Of a stretch of 64,000 nucleotides of DNA, positions 19,654 through 28,800 are shown piece by piece (positions within the stretch are counted from its first letter, which is position 1; each line of letters opens with the position of its first letter). The DNA lies in assembly GCA_025056455.1 (NCBI GenBank), contig JANWVY010000005.1, positions 310,001-374,000 of the forward strand. The letters are read 5' to 3'. This DNA is from Bryobacteraceae bacterium. GTDB taxonomy: Bacteria > Acidobacteriota > Terriglobia > Bryobacterales > Bryobacteraceae. The notes beneath the pieces were generated by a model. That model saw nothing but the letters and a program-made list of their open reading frames with translations, had not been told where the DNA came from and did not search any database. A program made the translations under genes and the position numbers.

Positions 19654-20529
19654 CTACTGGCTCAGCCACCACTTCATGGTCTTGGTCACCAAATCGGCAG
19701 CATCCCAGTGTGACCAGTGACCTGCATGGGGAATCGTCACCAGCGTGAGTGGCGCTTCGATCCATTTCCAAGTGTCGTTCAGCGCGCCCGGCAAAAGCGC
19801 CCAGTCCTTCAATCCATGAAACATCAACACCGGGACCTGAATGTTTGGCAGAACTGACCCCTCGGCCCGGTAGGGTTCGCGAGGATAATTCCGTTTGTAA
19901 TAATTCAGCATCGCCTCGAAGTCCGACTTGCGAAATGCATCGATATACTTCTCTCTCTCGGCCGCTGGAACCATCGCGGCCAGGCCCTCCGCGCTGAGCT
20001 TGCGGTGCGCCTCTTCCTGCTGGAAGTTTCTCGCGTACTGGCTATTTTTCTGCTGCTCGGGGTTATGCGCTAATTCCCGTCGTAAGCCGTGGGGGTGGGG
20101 AAGATTGACGATCACCAGCTTGTCTACTGCCGAAGGCGCAAAGGCGGCAACCGACCATGCAATCGCCCCGCCCCAATCGTGTCCAACAATCGTGGCCTTC
20201 TCTTTGCCAAGATGGCGGATCACGGCTAGAACATCTGACACGAGCAAGTTCATGTCGTAGTTTTCTACGCCTTTGGGTTTGTCCGAGAGATTATAGCCCC
20301 GAAGATCCATCGCAACGACTTGAAAATTCTCCGCCAGGGCTTCCATCTGATGCCGCCAGGAATACCAGAAATCAGGAAATCCATGAATCAGGACTACCAA
20401 CGGTCCCTTGCCCAGCGTCACGTAGTGAAGCTTGACGCCTTTGTTGTCTGCATAACCATGTTCGACGCGATCCATCAGGTCAGCTCCCAAGGCAGTCGCC
20501 GCCAGCAGCAGAGAGGCTAGTTGTTTCAT
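19654..20529 (-). CDS. Exported alpha/beta hydrolase, epoxide-hydrolase-like
   Basis: A 291-residue alpha/beta hydrolase with a signal peptide (residues 1-16). [10 protein letters not shown] (from His49) is the oxyanion-hole motif, and GHDWGG supplies the nucleophile Asp118. HAGHWSHWD near the C-terminus gives the catalytic His (about 271). An Asp nucleophile with HGxP is the pattern of epoxide hydrolases; haloalkane dehalogenases share the fold but usually have different halide-stabilising residues. Export of such an enzyme is less common. Its start overlaps the stop of the upstream PLP enzyme by four bases, so the two are coupled. Confidence 0.85.
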
Positions 20530-21623
20530 TGCAATTTCCCACGACCTTCCACTTTCCAGATTTCGACGACCTCGCCTCCGCGAACGCCATAGACGTGCTC
20601 ATGCAAATTCATCACGACACAGATGTGATTCGGAATAATCCGTAAACGGTCGCCTACAGCAAACTCACACTCGGTGCGCTTTAGATCGATGTAGCCGTGT
20701 TCTTCGTTCATCTTGAAGAACACCGCCTCGGGCGCGTCCACCACATAGCCAAAACTCATCTCCGAGGTCCCAGCCAGGCGATCGGAGGAGAAGGTCTTCG
20801 AGCCGCCGTCAATGATCACTTGCCGCGGTCTCGCCGTCGAGACGACGGTCACCAGCACTGAGGCGGCGCAGTCATCCAGCTGACAAGCCTGGCTGGCTAA
20901 CCAGACGTTCTTGTCGTTGAAAATGTAGGTGCCAGGCCGGATTTCGTTCATCCCCGGGATTTGGTGGGACTGCCACAGCAAGGGCGTTGATCCACCGCTC
21001 ACCACGTTCAATGGGAGGGCCGCACGTTTCCATTCGGAGATCATCCATTGAACGAGCGAAGCCAGTTCGGCCAGCTCTTCTGCGCCTTCTCCCTGAGCGG
21101 TTCGAATGTGCCCGGGATAAAAAGCGATTCCTTCCAGGTTGAGATAGGGCAGCCGCGCAATTTGGCGTCCCAATTCGTTTAATTCTTCTCCTGGGGTCAC
21201 GCCAACGCGCCCCATCCCCACGTCCGCTTCCGCCAGAACCGACACCGGAACGCGAGCAGAGCGCGCGGCGTCAGAAAGCTGCCGGGCCGCAAAGAGACTA
21301 TCTAAGCTTACGGTCAGCCGTGTTTTCTTGGCGACTTCCATCAGCCGGTCTAACTTCTTGCGGCCAATCACGGGGTAGGCTACCAGCAGGTCCGGAGTGC
21401 CGGACTGGGCCATGACCTCGGCCTCACCTACCTTCGCCACGGTGAGCCCAATGGCTCCATGCTCCAGTTGCAGGCGACCCAGAGCTGGAATCTTGTGTGT
21501 CTTGGTATGCGGTCTCAACCGTAAATCGTAAGACTTGGCGTAACCGGCCACCCGTTTCAGGTTGCGCTCCATGATGTCCAAGTCAATCACAACCGCGGGC
21601 GTTTCCAGTTCCGAGATCCGCAT
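20526..21623 (-). CDS. Fold-III PLP enzyme: D-serine dehydratase / D-threonine aldolase family
   Basis: A 365-residue alanine-racemase-fold PLP enzyme. The start [14 protein letters not shown] leads to LRPHTKTHK with the probable PLP lysine at Lys41. Later blocks are [29 protein letters not shown] and [11 protein letters not shown]. Near the C-terminus PNHICVVMN gives a His333-x-Cys335 metal pair. As I recall, zinc-dependent D-serine dehydratases have HxC here while D-threonine aldolases have HxD, so a D-serine dehydratase-like activity is slightly favoured. The substrate is not proved. It begins four bases after the upstream gene and overlaps the downstream hydrolase by four bases. Confidence 0.85.
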
Positions 21624-22389: not shown

Positions 22390-24072
22390 TCACAGGAAAT
22401 CGAAATCACAGCCGAGATGGGCTTGTGTGACGTGGTCGAGAAAGAGCTTGCCATAGCCGCGCTGGTAGTGTGGCGGAGGAGGCACAAACTGGGCCAGGCG
22501 CGCTTCCAGCTCGTCATTCGATATCTCGAGCTGCAGAAGCCGGGACTCAACATCGAGCGTCACTTCGTCGCCAGTCCGCACTGCAGCCAGTGGGCCTCCG
22601 ACGGCGGACTCCGGCGCCACATGTAACACAATGGTCCCAAAACTCGTGCCGCTCATCCGGGCATCAGAAATTCGCACCACATCCTGGACGCCTCGCTCGA
22701 GCAGGCGCTTCGGAATTGGAATATGCCCCCACTCGGGAAAGCCAGGTGCTCCCTTGGGCCCGCAGTTCTTCATCACCAGAACTGTCTTTTCGTCTACAGG
22801 TAGGTCCGGCGAGTCGATCTGCTCGCGCATGTGTTCATAGTTCTCAAACACGTAAGCCGGTCCGCGATGGCGCAGCAGAGCGGGGGAGGCGGCGCTCTGT
22901 TTGATGACCGCTCCGTCCGGACATAAATTCCCGCGGAGAACGGCGATCGCTCCTTGCTGGCTCAAGGGACGGTCCAACGGACGAATGATTTCTTCATTCC
23001 AACAGGCCGCTGCTTCCAAGTTCTGGGCAAGCGTTTTGCCGTTGACCGTCAGGCAGTCGCCATTCAAAAGCTCCCGAATCCGCATGAGAAGTGCGGGAAC
23101 GCCCCCAGCAGCAAAAAAATCCTCCATCAAATACTCGCCCGATGGCTTGACATTGGCCAGCGTGGGTGTCCTCCGAGAAATAACGTCAAAATCGTCCAGC
23201 TGGAGTGCGACCCCGGCGCGCCGGGCAATCGCCAGAAGGTGGACAACAGCATTCGTCGATCCTCCTAAGGCCATCATGGCCGTAACGCCGTTCTCGATGG
23301 CTTGCCGGGTCAAGATCCGTGATGGCGTCAGATCCTCTTTCACCATCTCCACGATGCGCATCCCGCTTCGTTCTGCAATTTCATAACGGCGGGAGTCGAC
23401 CGCAGGAATCGCGGCACAGCCCGGAAGGGTCATTCCCATCGCCTCGACGACGCAGGCCATCGTGGATGCCGTTCCCATGACAGCGCAGTGGCCGGCGCTT
23501 CTTGCAATCGCGCCCTCGATTTCAGACCATTCTCGAGGTCCCAGTTCGCCCCGGCGATACTGGTCAAATAAACGCCGGCCGTCAGTGCCCGCCCCCAATT
23601 TCTGATTGCGCCACAAACCACCCAGCATCGGCCCGCCTGGGACCAGAATCGCCGGGATACCCGCACTGATCGCCCCCATTAACTGCGCCGGAGTTGTTTT
23701 GTCGCAACCGCAAAGCAGAACCACCCCATCCAGTGGATTTGCGCGGATTGACTCCTCCACATCCATGGCCATCAAATTCCGCAGCAGCATGCTGGTCGGG
23801 CGAAGAAACATCTCTCCCAGCGAAATTGTTGGGAACTCGAGTGGAACGCCACCACCCACCCACACGCCCCGCTTGACCGCTTCCGCCACCTGACGCAGAT
23901 GCAAATTACAGTTGTTCAATTCGCTCCAGGAATTGCAGATTCCTATGACTGGCTTGCCGTGGAAGATATGGCTTCCCAAACCTTCCGATCGCAACCAAGC
24001 TTTCCGGGAAAAGCCATAATATTCCGGCGTATCGAACCAAGCCGCCGAGCGCAATTTCTTCTGGTTTGTCAT
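22390..24072 (-). CDS. Sugar-acid dehydratase of the IlvD/Edd family (arabinonate dehydratase-like)
   Basis: A 560-residue Fe-S dehydratase. Cys55, Cys123 and Cys196 (in ELNNCN, GCDKTTP and GHCAVMGTASTM) have the 68- and 73-residue spacing I recall for the [2Fe-2S] ligands of L-arabinonate dehydratase. The C-terminal HLGCDFDFL is typical of the sugar-acid branch rather than of true dihydroxy-acid dehydratases (IlvD), so the enzyme probably dehydrates an aldonic acid to a 2-keto-3-deoxy acid. The frame opens at 24201, but the first 43 residues are outside the family and overlap the riboswitch region. The ATG at 24072 is preferred. A TACAAT -10-like box lies just upstream and shares DNA with the divergent lysine-operon promoter. 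Confidence 0.85.
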   Translation of the reverse strand: MTNQKKLRSAAWFDTPEYYGFSRKAWLRSEGLGSHIFHGKPVIGICNSWSELNNCNLHLRQVAEAVKRGVWVGGGVPLEFPTISLGEMFLRPTSMLLRNLMAMDVEESIRANPLDGVVLLCGCDKTTPAQLMGAISAGIPAILVPGGPMLGGLWRNQKLGAGTDGRRLFDQYRRGELGPREWSEIEGAIARSAGHCAVMGTASTMACVVEAMGMTLPGCAAIPAVDSRRYEIAERSGMRIVEMVKEDLTPSRILTRQAIENGVTAMMALGGSTNAVVHLLAIARRAGVALQLDDFDVISRRTPTLANVKPSGEYLMEDFFAAGGVPALLMRIRELLNGDCLTVNGKTLAQNLEAAACWNEEIIRPLDRPLSQQGAIAVLRGNLCPDGAVIKQSAASPALLRHRGPAYVFENYEHMREQIDSPDLPVDEKTVLVMKNCGPKGAPGFPEWGHIPIPKRLLERGVQDVVRISDARMSGTSFGTIVLHVAPESAVGGPLAAVRTGDEVTLDVESRLLQLEISNDELEARLAQFVPPPPHYQRGYGKLFLDHVTQAHLGCDFDFL

Positions 24073-24083
24073 GATGGCGACTA

Positions 24084-24111
24084 TTGTACTGAGGCCACCC
24101 CGTGGTATCCT
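24084..24111 (+). promoter_or_regulatory. Promoter of the lysine riboswitch/operon
   Basis: TTGTAC (24084-24089), 16 bases, then an extended -10 TGGTATCCT (hexamer 24106-24111). The predicted start, about seven bases downstream near 24118, coincides with the first base of riboswitch stem P1. It overlaps the 5' region of the divergent dehydratase gene, whose own TACAAT box lies in the same DNA. Confidence 0.65.
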
Positions 24112-24117
24112 GAGAAG

Positions 24118-24307
24118 TTCTTGGTAGAGGTGCGGCGGCCAAGAGTAGTTGCGCAAGCCGTTCTGGAGCACTCCAGATTGCGCGAGGAAAGGGGCCGGCA
24201 AATGTTCCGCCGAAATCGTTGTCCCAGTAGCTGAGGCAGCGGTTGGGGGTCCAGGCTAATACCTGGCCACTGTCATCCGGTTGATCCGGATGGAGCGCTA
24301 TCAGGGA
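24118..24307 (+). ncRNA. Lysine riboswitch (L-box)
   Basis: The leader carries the conserved L-box blocks in order: AGAGGTGC (24126-24133), CCAAGAGTAG (24139-24148), GGAAAGGGG (24186-24194), GCCGAA (24209-24214), CTGTC (24271-24275) and GGAGCGCTATC (24292-24302). The stems are visible. P1 pairs 24118-24127 with 24298-24307 (ten pairs, three G-U). An arm pairs GCGCAA 24151-24156 with TTGCGC 24178-24183. Another pairs CGTTGTC 24217-24223 with GGCAGCG 24235-24241. Further arms are CCAGG/CCTGG at 24251-24266 and CATCCGG/CCGGATG at 24274-24292. It lies directly before four lysine-pathway genes. The 24308-24378 platform has no T-run terminator, so translational or Rho-dependent control is more likely. 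Confidence 0.92.
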
Positions 24308-24378
24308 AACAGGCCCGCCGTCTGGGCACGCGCTGTCTGTCCCCACCGCTCCGTGATCCTCTCCGCAAGAAGGCAAGC

Positions 24379-25383
24379 ATGGACGTCTTTCAGCTTACTA
24401 GAGCGCTAGTTGATATTGAATCCATCACCGGCAATGAACGCCGCATTGGACAGTACCTGGTAAAGCTCCTTCAAGGCCTTTGCCAGAAGTACGACGGCGT
24501 CGTGGAAGAAATTGAAGTCGAGCCCAACCGTTTTAATGTGCTTGCCTGTTGGGGTGCCCCAACGGTCACCTTTTCCACTCACATGGATACAGTGCCACCG
24601 TTTTTCCCTTCCCGAGAAGACGACGACTACATTTGGGGACGCGGGGCTTGCGACACCAAGGGAATCATCGCGAGCATGATCCACGCCATCGAAGGCTTAC
24701 TCGCCGAAGGCCGGCGAAATCTTGCGCTGTTGTTGGTTGTGGGCGAAGAACGCAATAGCGCGGGCGCCTACTGGATGTCAAAACAGCCGCGCGGCTCTCG
24801 GTATTTGATCAACGGTGAACCCACTGAAAACCAGCTCGCGCTCGGCTCCAAGGGAGCGCTGCGGTTGGAGGTGATCACCCGTGGGAAGATGGCCCATTCC
24901 GCGTATCCGCATCTGGGAGAATCTGCGATCGAAAAAATGCTCGACATCCTCCAAGACTTACGTTCCATGCCGCTTTTAACGGATTCGCTTTTGGGTCCCA
25001 GCACGCTCAATATTGGCACGATCAGCGGTGGTCGCGCGCCCAACATCGTGCCAGATTATTGCCAGGCAGAAATCTTAATTCGCTTGGTGGACGACGGATT
25101 GTCCACCAAGGCGGCCGCTGAACAGCTCATTGGCCAGCGCGGTGAAGTGAAAGAAGTTCTGCGAATTCCAGCGCTCCGGCTGGGAAAACTCGAAGGGTTT
25201 CCCACAACCGTTGTCGCCTACACAACCGACATCCCCGCCTTCGGCGGCACTTGGGGCCAGCCGTTTCTTCTAGGGCCAGGAACCATCCATGTCGCCCATA
25301 CTTCTGAAGAAAGGGTCCCAAAACAGCAGTTGGTGGAAGCAATCGGAATTTATCAATCTATGGCCCAGCAGCTACTCACGTAG
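24379..25383 (+). CDS. dapE: M20 family amidohydrolase, probable succinyl-diaminopimelate desuccinylase
   Basis: A 334-residue di-zinc M20 peptidase-family enzyme. Metal and catalytic motifs are STHMDTVP (His68, Asp70), GRGACDTKG (Asp92), VGEER (Glu123/Glu124) and HTSEERV near the end. A dimerisation domain lies in the middle (about 155-265). The family includes DapE, ArgE and the LysW-lysine hydrolase LysK. Context decides: it is the first gene after a lysine riboswitch and precedes asd, lysC and dapB, so removal of an acyl group from a diaminopimelate intermediate is the best call. GAAGG lies five bases before the ATG. The paralogue-level assignment remains an inference. Confidence 0.8.
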   Translation: MDVFQLTRALVDIESITGNERRIGQYLVKLLQGLCQKYDGVVEEIEVEPNRFNVLACWGAPTVTFSTHMDTVPPFFPSREDDDYIWGRGACDTKGIIASMIHAIEGLLAEGRRNLALLLVVGEERNSAGAYWMSKQPRGSRYLINGEPTENQLALGSKGALRLEVITRGKMAHSAYPHLGESAIEKMLDILQDLRSMPLLTDSLLGPSTLNIGTISGGRAPNIVPDYCQAEILIRLVDDGLSTKAAAEQLIGQRGEVKEVLRIPALRLGKLEGFPTTVVAYTTDIPAFGGTWGQPFLLGPGTIHVAHTSEERVPKQQLVEAIGIYQSMAQQLLT

Positions 25384-25432
25384 TCTGTCTCAGCTTGGTG
25401 CAAATCCTGAACAGAAGCGAAGCGAAAGGAAA

Positions 25433-26485
25433 ATGCAAAAAAAGATCGAAGTCGGCGTTCTCGGCGCCACCGGTATGGTGGGTCAGCATTTTGTGAAATT
25501 TCTCCAGGGCCACCCCTGGTTTGAACTGGTTTGGCTCGGCGCTAGTGATCGATCCGCGGGCAAGAAATATCGAGACGCGACAAGCTGGCGACTGAGCGGG
25601 CTTATGCCGGAACCAGCTGCGAATCTCATGGTCGAAGAGTGTAAGCCGGGGAATGCTCCCCGCCTTTTGTTCTCTGCAACCGATTCCTCCGTGGCCACCG
25701 AAATTGAACAAGCGTTCGCGCGTGCCGGGCACATCGTCGTGTCGAACTCGAAAAACCACCGCATGGACCCTGACGTTCCCCTGCTCGTGCCGGAGTTGAA
25801 CCCAGACCATCTCAAGCTTCTGCCTTTACAGCGCCAGCGGCGTGGATGGAGGGGTGCGATTGTGACCAACCCCAACTGCTCCACCGTCGTCCTCACCTTG
25901 GCGCTCGGTCCGTTCAAACCTTTCGGCATCCGGCGCGTGATCGTTACCACGCTCCAGGCAATTTCCGGGGCTGGATATCCTGGCGTTGCCTCCATGGACA
26001 TCATGGCTAACGTCATCCCTTACATCGGCGGCGAGGAGGAAAAGATCGAAGTTGAAACCCAGAAAATCTTGGGCGAATTTGCAGAGGACCGGATTCAGCC
26101 CCTAGAAGCTGTGGTGAGTGCCCATTGCAACCGGGTTCCCGTCGTCGATGGGCATCTTGCGGCGATCTCCGTAGAGTTCTCTCACAAACCAACTCAAGCA
26201 GAAATGTCCGCCGCGCTCCAGCAATTCCATCCGAGGCCGCAGCAACTCGAGCTGCCCAGCGCACCCCCACGGCCTGTCATCTACATGCCCGAATGCGACC
26301 GCCCACAACCCAGGCGCGATGTGGAGCGAGAAAACGGCATGGCTTGTTTCGTTGGACGCCTGCGCGATTGCCCAGTCTTTCACTATAAGTTTCTCGCTCT
26401 TGGCCACAACACCGTGCGCGGCGCGGCTGGCGCGGCTGTACTCAATGCGGAGCTCATGTACCAAGAGGGGCTGCTCGAGGAATGA
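25433..26485 (+). CDS. asd: Aspartate-semialdehyde dehydrogenase
   Basis: A 350-residue NADP-dependent enzyme that makes aspartate semialdehyde, the branch-point of lysine, threonine and methionine synthesis. The Rossmann start is VGVLGATGMVGQHF. The catalytic cysteine is Cys149 in VTNPNCSTVVL, followed by LQAISGAGYPGV; the later VDGH supplies the catalytic His. Length and these blocks fit the archaeal/fungal-type Asd rather than the E. coli type. The open frame reaches back to 25289 inside dapE, but AAAGGAA just before the ATG at 25433 and the family N-terminus fix the start. It overlaps lysC by four bases. Confidence 0.93.
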   Translation: MQKKIEVGVLGATGMVGQHFVKFLQGHPWFELVWLGASDRSAGKKYRDATSWRLSGLMPEPAANLMVEECKPGNAPRLLFSATDSSVATEIEQAFARAGHIVVSNSKNHRMDPDVPLLVPELNPDHLKLLPLQRQRRGWRGAIVTNPNCSTVVLTLALGPFKPFGIRRVIVTTLQAISGAGYPGVASMDIMANVIPYIGGEEEKIEVETQKILGEFAEDRIQPLEAVVSAHCNRVPVVDGHLAAISVEFSHKPTQAEMSAALQQFHPRPQQLELPSAPPRPVIYMPECDRPQPRRDVERENGMACFVGRLRDCPVFHYKFLALGHNTVRGAAGAAVLNAELMYQEGLLEE

Positions 26486-27852
26486 TTGTCATGAAGTTTG
26501 GCGGAACCTCGGTTGAGTCCGCCAGCGCCTTGGAGCGAGTCGCCTCGATTGTGAAAGCGCGTTTGGACCGCCAGCCCGTGGTGGTCGTTTCCGCCATGGG
26601 AAAAACCACAAACCGGCTCCTCGAGATTGCTACGGCGGCCGCGGAAGGTAAGCAAAATGAGGCTTTAAAATTGCTTAGCGACCTGAAGGAGTATCACCGC
26701 CGGGAAGCGACTCCAGTCATCAAGTCCGACGATGCCGCTGAATTAGAGCAAATCCTCACCGATCACTTCGGCGAATTACAGGACTACGTCGCGCAAATTG
26801 CTGAGGTCGAGGAGTTCTCTCCCCGTTTGGTGGACTCCGTATCTTCTCTTGGAGAGCGGATATCCAGCCGCATCCTCACCCTCGTCTTCCGACACTTCGG
26901 TATCGATGCGGTTCACTTGGACGCACGCCATGTGATCGTCACCGATTCCCGGCACACTCAGGCGTCACCACTACTCAAAAAAACTTACGCCCGGCTGGCG
27001 CAAACCATTCCTCCTCTGGTCGCCAAGCACGTTGTCGTGATGGGTGGCTTCATCGGTTCTGCCGAAGATGGCGCAACCACAACTTTGGGACGCGGAGGGT
27101 CTGACTTTACAGCCTCTATCGTGGGGGCTGGAATTCACGCCGAAGAGATCCAGATCTGGACCGATGTCGACGGAATGTTGACGTGCGATCCGCGAATCGT
27201 AGCTGGTGGCCGGAGGGTCAAGACGATTTCCTTCGCTGAAGCCGCGGAACTGGCTTACTTTGGCGCTAAGGTCTTGCACCCGGCTACGGTTCATCCTGCA
27301 ATTGAGAAAAACATTCCAGTCCTAATTTTGAACTCGCGAAGACCCGAAGTCGAAGGGACGCGAATCGTTTCCACAAGTGTGCCTTGCCGCAATGTGATCA
27401 AGTCCATTGCGGCGAAACCCAATATCACGGTTGTAAAGGTGCAGTCCTTACGAATGTTAATGGCACACGGATTCCTGCGGCGCATCTTCGAGGTGTTTGA
27501 CCGTTATCCCACGCCGGTCGACATCGTGACGACCAGTGAAGTAAGCGTGTCGTTGACCATTGACAATCCCAGGTATTTGACAGAAATTTGCGAAGAACTG
27601 CGGGCCATTGCCGAAGTTTCTGTGGAGAAACAGATGGCGATTGTGTGCGTTGTCGGTGACAGCATTCAGGACACGCCGGGCATTGCAGGGCGCGTCTTTC
27701 GGGCGCTTGGTGACATCAATGTGCGGATGATCTCTCAGGGCGCCTCTCAGCTCAACCTCAGTTTCGTTGTTGCCGAGAATGATATGAAACCTGCAATGCA
27801 GGCTCTTCATGAGGAATTCTTCCGCGACCTCGACCCGGAGGTGTTTGACTAA
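26482..27852 (+). CDS. lysC: Aspartate kinase (monofunctional)
   Basis: A 456-residue aspartokinase catalysing the first step of the aspartate family pathway. MKFGGTSVESASAL is the conserved phosphate-binding start. TTLGRGGSDFTA and WTDVDGMLTCDPR are the substrate and nucleotide blocks. Two ACT domains occupy about 310-456 (VDIVTTSEVSVSLTI, IAGRVFRALGDINVRMISQG) and would bind the feedback inhibitor. The length matches monofunctional lysine-sensitive kinases such as E. coli LysC; no homoserine dehydrogenase domain is fused. The start overlaps asd (ATGA). Control therefore seems double: riboswitch on the RNA and ACT domains on the enzyme. Confidence 0.95.
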   Translation: MIVMKFGGTSVESASALERVASIVKARLDRQPVVVVSAMGKTTNRLLEIATAAAEGKQNEALKLLSDLKEYHRREATPVIKSDDAAELEQILTDHFGELQDYVAQIAEVEEFSPRLVDSVSSLGERISSRILTLVFRHFGIDAVHLDARHVIVTDSRHTQASPLLKKTYARLAQTIPPLVAKHVVVMGGFIGSAEDGATTTLGRGGSDFTASIVGAGIHAEEIQIWTDVDGMLTCDPRIVAGGRRVKTISFAEAAELAYFGAKVLHPATVHPAIEKNIPVLILNSRRPEVEGTRIVSTSVPCRNVIKSIAAKPNITVVKVQSLRMLMAHGFLRRIFEVFDRYPTPVDIVTTSEVSVSLTIDNPRYLTEICEELRAIAEVSVEKQMAIVCVVGDSIQDTPGIAGRVFRALGDINVRMISQGASQLNLSFVVAENDMKPAMQALHEEFFRDLDPEVFD

Positions 27853-27853
27853 A

Positions 27854-28555
27854 ATGCGTAAGCTGGCGCTGGTGGGTTACGGCAAAATGGGGAAACTCTT
27901 AGATCAGCTTGCCCCAGAGTATGGCTTTGAAACGGTTCTGCGTTTGGATGAGGTCAATAACCACGCAGGAGCTGGCATCACGGCGGAAAATTTTCAAGGC
28001 GTGGACGTCGCAATTGAGTTCTCCACCCCCTCCGCTGTTGTCGATAACCTCGAACGCTTGGCCAAGCTGCGAATTCCTACCGTGGTCGGCACCACGGGCT
28101 GGAGCCAGCATCTGCCTCATGTGCAGAAGATTGTTGCTGATTACGAATCCGCCCTCGTCTGGAGTCCAAACTTTTCGATTGGCGTCAACGTTTTCGTGCG
28201 GCTGGTGCGGGAAGCCGCGCGGTGGATGGCCTCCGAGCCCTCCTATGGCGCGTGGGCGTGGGAAATCCACCATGCCACCAAAAAAGACGCTCCTTCCGGA
28301 ACGCTTGAAAAACTGGTTGCCGAAATGAAAAGTGCAGGCTTCAACCGCCGCATCGACATCTCCTCCAACCGTGCCGGATCGCATCCTGGTACGCACGAAA
28401 TCGGATTCGATTCTCCCGCCGACACCATCACCCTCCGGCACTCGGCGCGGAACCGGGAAGGCTTCGCACGCGGCGCGCTTCGAGCCGCGCAATGGCTGCC
28501 CGGGCGCAAAGGATGTTTCGAGTTCGCCGATGTGCTATTCGAAATCCCGGCCTAA
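27854..28555 (+). CDS. dapB: 4-hydroxy-tetrahydrodipicolinate reductase (short form)
   Basis: A 233-residue DapB. The dinucleotide site is VGYGKMGK, with GT-T-GW at 79-83. The signature EIHHATKKDAPSGT (137-150) holds the catalytic His139 and Lys143, placed as in E. coli His159/Lys163. It is shorter than the E. coli enzyme (273 residues), mainly in the N-terminal domain; short DapB proteins occur in several phyla. It begins one base after the lysC stop; the longer frame from 27809 overlaps lysC and is rejected. It confirms that the operon serves the diaminopimelate route. dapA is not in the window. Confidence 0.93.
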   Translation: MRKLALVGYGKMGKLLDQLAPEYGFETVLRLDEVNNHAGAGITAENFQGVDVAIEFSTPSAVVDNLERLAKLRIPTVVGTTGWSQHLPHVQKIVADYESALVWSPNFSIGVNVFVRLVREAARWMASEPSYGAWAWEIHHATKKDAPSGTLEKLVAEMKSAGFNRRIDISSNRAGSHPGTHEIGFDSPADTITLRHSARNREGFARGALRAAQWLPGRKGCFEFADVLFEIPA

Positions 28556-28662
28556 ACGCCCGGGAGAGGAAGGGCGTTCCAGGGGCCGGGAGTGAGTGAT
28601 CCAAGTTGCGGGAGACTGAAAAAAGTGTCTCTGGCGATTTCAGCCGTTCAACGGGCTGCAAG

Positions 28663-28693
28663 TTGGTGGTCAGGGCAGCGAATTGGTTATACT
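28663..28693 (+). promoter_or_regulatory. Probable tRNA-Glu promoter
   Basis: TTGGTG (28663-28668) and TATACT (28688-28693) are separated by 19 bases. Predicted transcription would start about ten bases before the tRNA. The spacing is longer than ideal. Confidence 0.4.
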
Positions 28694-28710
28694 GTGAATA
28701 ACTCCACCGT

Positions 28711-28785
28711 GGCGCTATCGTCTAAGGGTTAGGACAAAGCCCTCTCAAGGCTTAAATACGGGTTCGAATCCCGTTAGCGCTACCA
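28711..28785 (+). tRNA. tRNA-Glu (anticodon CTC)
   Basis: A full cloverleaf with encoded CCA. The acceptor stem pairs GGCGCTA (28711-28717) with TAGCGCT (28775-28781), with a G-U at the first pair. The anticodon stem AAGCC/GGCTT encloses the loop CTCTCAA, with anticodon CTC at 28744-28746. The T arm is ACGGG-TTCGAAT-CCCGT. It reads GAG codons. No integrase or att duplication is visible nearby. Confidence 0.96.
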
Positions 28786-28800
28786 CCGCTCCCCGCCCGT

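Follow-up and report, generated by a model that had tools for sequence, protein, structure and literature searches.

We describe a lysine riboswitch that precedes a dapE-asd-lysC-dapB operon in a Bryobacteraceae bacterium (phylum Acidobacteriota). We tentatively read it as an OFF switch for the four genes, giving this reading slightly less than an even chance: the riboswitch would block translation of dapE, and termination by Rho may follow. The element is ordinary as a riboswitch, and its value lies in the family-wide set of 112 gathered loci to which it belongs, a set that lets one ask how a riboswitch can act when it has no terminator and little Shine-Dalgarno signal to work with. Coordinates refer to the window, the whole 64,000-nt stretch of DNA that was analysed. 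The riboswitch and its surroundings comprise the following features:

22390-24072, minus strand: dihydroxy-acid dehydratase family gene, divergent from the operon, the start codon being our reading
24103-24111, plus strand: extended -10 element TGGTATCCT, its placement conserved in host-family loci
24117-24308, plus strand: lysine riboswitch aptamer RF00168, 76 bits, with P1 at 24118-24127/24298-24307
24379-25383, plus strand: dapE-like M20 hydrolase, probably succinyl-DAP desuccinylase, with the Pfam domains Peptidase_M20 and M20_dimer over cut-off
25433-26485, plus strand: asd, aspartate-semialdehyde dehydrogenase (TIGR00978, 445.3 bits, cut-off 301.2)
26482-27852, plus strand: lysC, aspartate kinase of the lysine-sensitive type (PRK09084, 523.5 bits, cut-off 455; ACT_9)
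27854-28555, plus strand: dapB, dihydrodipicolinate reductase, with DapB_N and DapB_C over cut-off; the start at 27854 is our reading, the mechanical open reading frame beginning at 27809

An Rfam scan of the whole window returned two features over cut-off, a lysine riboswitch and a tRNA. A preliminary description of this DNA, made from the letters, had placed a lysine riboswitch at 24118-24307 and proposed a covariance-model search, and the search bears it out: RF00168 matches 24117-24308 on the plus strand with an E value of 4.5e-18, above its cut-off of 30 bits and from end to end of the model (positions 1-182 of 182). All the conserved L-box blocks listed there (AGAGGTGC, CCAAGAGTAG, GGAAAGGGG, GCCGAA, CTGTC and GGAGCGCTATC) are present, as is the ten-pair P1, found by direct reading and counting three G-U pairs; the Rfam structure covers only its inner six. 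Five paired arms surround the junction, 49 of the 52 model pairs that remain once gapped columns are dropped being canonical and the other three lying in P3 and P4. Upper-case consensus positions are identical at 45 of 49, with three of the four mismatches in the P2 loop. By its sequence the element is confirmed as a lysine riboswitch of the known class, which would bind lysine. A single copy was found in the 4.98-Mb host genome, which is 98.94% complete.

The aptamer is accompanied by a promoter whose position is conserved. In 103 of 108 host-family loci, the window included, a TAnnnT motif ends 2-16 nt before the aptamer, against 12.6 +/- 3.4 in shuffles, and the extended form TGnTAnnnT precedes it in 45 of the 108 against 0.8. 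This agrees with the extended -10 promoter that had been noticed ahead of P1, and from the position of the -10 element transcription probably starts near 24118. A generic sigma-70 scan of 23900-28800 that also required a -35 element gave no promoter. On the other side of the promoter, about 45 bp separate the aptamer from the likely start of the divergent dihydroxy-acid dehydratase family gene, whose mechanical open reading frame reaches 24201 and overlaps the aptamer. A further divergent gene with Ala_racemase_N and D-ser_dehydrat domains lies at 20526-21623 on the minus strand.

The operon itself holds as described earlier. The asd and lysC products clear their NCBIfam cut-offs, and the M20 and DapB domains are recognised by Pfam; against TIGR00036 the dapB product scores 111.7 bits, below the cut-off of 122. 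LysC passes the cut-off of 'lysine-sensitive aspartokinase 3' and its ACT domain that of Pfam, so that feedback at the protein level through this domain, as earlier suggested, is plausible. For dapE the M20 domains are there, but no DapE model passed its NCBIfam cut-off among the 25 top-scoring of 44, and the ArgE/DapE subfamily model gave 131.9 bits, below its cut-off of 217.6. Adjacent dapA and dapD genes lie on another contig of the host genome (dapA 343.6 bits, cut-off 206.15; dapD 300.7 bits with PRK11830, over the cut-off of 204, and 183.6 with TIGR00965, under 375.4). Because both are encoded elsewhere, a desuccinylase is expected and the pathway probably runs through the succinylase branch; to call the M20 gene dapE is reasonable and the simplest reading, though its own scores are no proof. 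A DapL route was considered and rejected: the best of 11 matches, the sole one examined, scored 414.5 against a DapL cut-off of 593.25 and did best with an alanine transaminase model, also under cut-off. A tRNA-Glu gene (anticodon CTC) directly follows the operon at 28711-28785.

The riboswitch is widespread in the host family. RF00168 has matches in 137 of the 200 family genomes, 136 of them over cut-off, and in 43 of 396 genomes drawn from the phylum; the filtering behind both counts misses some weak matches. Two genomes of another family, f24 (G513 and G537), have two matches each, while the other matching genomes listed have one. From the 137 matching family genomes 112 loci were gathered, leaving 25 not gathered, and a pattern search placed a dapE-type start downstream of the aptamer in 108 of them, at a median of 63 nt; these include one locus (L084) with the start 395 nt away. 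Of the remaining four, L082 ends at a contig edge and L103, L116 and L117 are misses of the pattern.

Part of the family differs. Among the 63 family genomes with no match, 20 were examined and 17 have dapE; a sensitive scan of those 17 dapE loci recovered the aptamer in two (L162 and L165). The other 15 include a partial gene (L178), a locus with 147 upstream bases (L169), one with a partly masked upstream region (L166) and one with no start placed (L171). In L163, L164 and L166-L177 dapE is present and no lysine aptamer was found in the fetched loci; some members of the host family therefore lack the switch or have lost it. The idea that relatives without the aptamer use leaderless mRNAs was dropped, since 4 of 13 loci against 2.1 expected is not significant (43 of 300 shuffles reach it).

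In the 3' part of the aptamer and beyond it, the window leader holds the elements of two alternative structures:

24292-24297, plus strand: GGAGCG of the aptamer core, predicted to pair with 24347-24352 as the 5' arm of an alternative, anti-aptamer helix
24304-24343, plus strand: platform hairpin, in both predicted states
24347-24352, plus strand: anti-core tract CGCTCC, complement of GGAGCG, CTCC being enriched in family leaders
24350-24385, plus strand: predicted OFF-state lock, TCCGTG 24350-24355 with CATGGA 24378-24383

In the ligand-free fold of the whole leader the GGAGCG/CGCTCC helix forms with pair probabilities of 0.66-0.91 and P1 has a probability of 0.0, the minimum-energy fold likewise being without P1. 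The computed core-tract helix and the P1 and core pairings exclude one another. We propose that, without lysine, the 3' core strand of the aptamer pairs with the downstream tract and so undoes the aptamer, and that lysine would lock P1 and the core and release the tract. In the window copy the released tract should, according to the folds, base-pair across the dapE start codon and enclose the weak ribosome-binding site, which would block translation; Rho may then end transcription within the untranslated leader. While the aptamer, the promoter position, the operon and the mutually exclusive pairings come out of the computation itself, we infer lysine binding, the direction of control and the translation step.

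The predicted lock across the dapE start codon recurs in two folds, that of the RNA after P1 and that of the whole leader with P1 enforced, and encloses a CCTCT/AG-AGG hairpin over the weak Shine-Dalgarno sequence AGAAGG (24368-24373). Enforcing P1 in the whole window leader makes the start region 2.3 kcal/mol harder to open (8.1 to 10.4). In another model, which cuts the leader at the aptamer strand (the cut model), opening the start region costs 3.4 kcal/mol more, a change that 1% of 200 shuffles reach. In the model, which ignores tertiary contacts, the P1 state costs 7.7 kcal/mol before any ligand energy. Other measures of the window copy are unremarkable: 0.365 of 200 shuffles do as well as its core-tract duplex, and its fold energy is ordinary for the region (z 0.36 and z 0.11) and for the whole leader (z -0.53). 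Moreover, when no ligand is present the 5' strand of P1 is predicted to bind 24361-24371 and so to cover some of the Shine-Dalgarno sequence. This would hinder translation in the absence of lysine, and the fold alone therefore leaves the direction of control unfixed.

Two results raised the standing of Rho and lowered that of translation: this pairing over the Shine-Dalgarno sequence without ligand, and the freeing of the window tract (-40 to -14), which in the whole leader becomes 5.2 kcal/mol easier to open with P1 enforced (13.4 to 8.2). We still rank control of translation first, with loading of Rho close behind at rather under even odds. In the latter account lysine would act mainly by exposing a C-rich, G-poor tract for Rho, and transcription would end before dapE or early within it. 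The modelled window folds fit a block of translation and Rho loading alike.

The folding tests of family leaders took 103 of the 108 loci, dropping three without a platform and two longer than 130 nt. With P1 enforced, and here without shuffles, the tract becomes easier to open by a median of 4.43 kcal/mol, by more than 1 kcal/mol in 76 leaders and with the opposite change in 10; in the cut model the median is 2.18 kcal/mol against 0.15 in shuffled platforms. Masking of the start shows no such consistency: with P1 enforced, the start region becomes harder to open by over 1 kcal/mol in 34 of the 103 leaders and easier in 35, and in the cut model its change across the family is indistinguishable from that of shuffles (p 0.16; 29% of leaders against 17% of shuffles exceed 1 kcal/mol). 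Release of the tract is the only consistent event predicted across these leaders, and it would fit Rho loading at least as well as masking of the start. Since start masking is no family trait, the lock of the window may be a chance fold.

The composition of the leaders and the quality of the gene starts also speak for Rho loading. The excess of C over G at -60 to -15 is 0.229 +/- 0.096 in family leaders (n=66) and 0.006 +/- 0.109 in 119 control leaders. A Shine-Dalgarno energy of -5 kcal/mol or lower is reached at 19 of 105 dapE starts; among the 119 controls it is reached at 49 when the first ATG is taken and at 59 when the best start is taken. The control starts are putative, being first ATGs of open reading frames from four genomes, and may include the window's own dapE. 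In the first batch of loci the count is 10 of 67 for dapE and 33 of 61 for asd, 9 of 70 asd starts not having been found. Rho is encoded in the host genome (723 bits), and for E. coli the accessible part of the source (PMC5234074) describes riboswitches that act through Rho, and rut sites that are C-rich and G-poor. Against Rho, the C-richness could simply follow from complementarity to the purine-rich aptamer strand; moreover, the window platform is less skewed than those of its relatives (29 C and 19 G of 70), and its tract is not freed in the cut model (-0.09). The open frame that holds the host rho gene (G000:C2:49841-51076) encodes 718 residues against 415 model positions, and the protein may therefore carry a large extension.

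Complementarity to the core is itself visible across the family. CTCC occurs in 59 of 67 family leaders against 45.0 +/- 3.7 in dinucleotide shuffles, none of 200 reaching that number, and with one leader per genus in 41 of 47 against 31.9 +/- 3.0 (1 of 300 shuffles), in a set whose genus labels were typed by hand with some genera left out. Exact CGCTCC is found in 12 of the 67 against 5.4 (3 of 200 shuffles), and TTCC is not enriched (41 against 37.9 expected). The duplex between a 12-nt core strand and the platform is weakly better than in shuffles (mean z -0.32, p 0.065, n=67), and with its energy so near the shuffle level it is no proof by itself of a core-tract switch. In 96 of 103 leaders the minimum-energy fold pairs at least three of the four GGAG bases, shuffles giving 90.8; averaged over the leaders, which are related sequences, the fold energy of the same region is better than in shuffles (Wilcoxon p 1.5e-13, mean z -1.06). 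A consensus fold of 22 related leaders has seven pairs, four in a small inner hairpin, three of which change on both sides, and three between G-rich sequence and the tract, which vary one-sidedly; the GGAG-tract helix is missing from it.

These results allow a formulation for the family as a whole that we consider possible but doubtful: a platform that works without an intrinsic terminator and without masking a Shine-Dalgarno sequence, in which lysine would free the conserved, C-rich anti-core tract for Rho to load on, upstream of a gene start hardly using Shine-Dalgarno pairing, and in one genus a platform that is gone altogether, the aptamer GGAG having become the ribosome-binding site. The genus is g70. 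In all three of its genomes (L071, L079 and L097) the dapE ATG stands 0 nt after the aptamer match and 5 nt beyond P1, and the P5 arm measures 45-46 nt where the RF00168 model has 7. The core GGAG gives a strong Shine-Dalgarno score (-6.7 kcal/mol), although its 13-nt spacing to the ATG is long, and on this sequence it may serve as the ribosome-binding site. The three sequences are near-identical and so probably reflect one evolutionary event.

Such an arrangement recalls the direct translation attenuation class of Barrick and Breaker (2007), of which the consulted part of the paper (PMC2258182) says that it is unclear why it is not commoner in other classes. A start within 15 nt of the aptamer is found in g70 alone, in three of three genomes; in the window the ATG lies 70 nt after the aptamer match and 75 nt beyond the inner P1, and the direct layout fits only the g70 relatives. 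These genomes make the old question of aptamers doubling as ribosome-binding sites testable.

It is improbable that lysine acts here on an intrinsic terminator of unusual form, with a mixed T/C tract behind the hairpin. Terminator-like sites with 5 T of 8 do occur in 12 of 103 family leaders against 5.7 +/- 2.1 in shuffles, and of the 27 loci from other families 12 were scanned in the same way, with a score in six (L032, L033, L034, L039, L049 and L050), TTTTT by eye in L035 and L037, and neither score nor T run in L040, L042, L044 and L051. The window leader, however, has no such site whether 5 or 4 T of 8 are required and none in a generic scan, and thus no hairpin with a T run before the gene. 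The preliminary description had likewise seen no T-run terminator in the platform and had favoured translation or Rho over intrinsic termination, a preference with which the folds under enforced P1 also agree. A relic aptamer that has lost its switching is very improbable: aptamers can be missing from dapE loci of the family, as described above, but in the window 45 of 49 consensus positions are kept, the helices are intact, the -10 element is in register and the core-tract pairing is predicted.

The riboswitch class and its presence in Acidobacteria are already known, on the evidence of the portion of a 2017 survey available to us (PMC5584792). Among the matches listed in a search of the open-licence literature, no title dealt with the platform of an acidobacterial lysine riboswitch, and 'acidobacteri' does not occur in the accessible text of a study that models lysine riboswitches filtered for terminators (PMC13273304). 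With the RF00168 L box in general the window shares a full-length match, the conserved core and a lysine-biosynthesis operon downstream, but its leader has no terminator-like site and the first gene in its family shows little Shine-Dalgarno signal. A table in the same survey lists a lysine riboswitch of Candidatus Solibacter usitatus ahead of asd-lysC (PMC5584792); this is an acidobacterial case with the same kind of genes, whereas the window, compared through that table only, has dapE first and dapB last. The E. coli lysC riboswitch, which the parts consulted of PMC5584792 and PMC5234074 describe as acting through translation and RNase E, resembles our reading of the window in its lysine class, in a predicted anti-P1 stem and in control at the level of translation. 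It differs in that the host family carries a C-rich, G-poor tract throughout.
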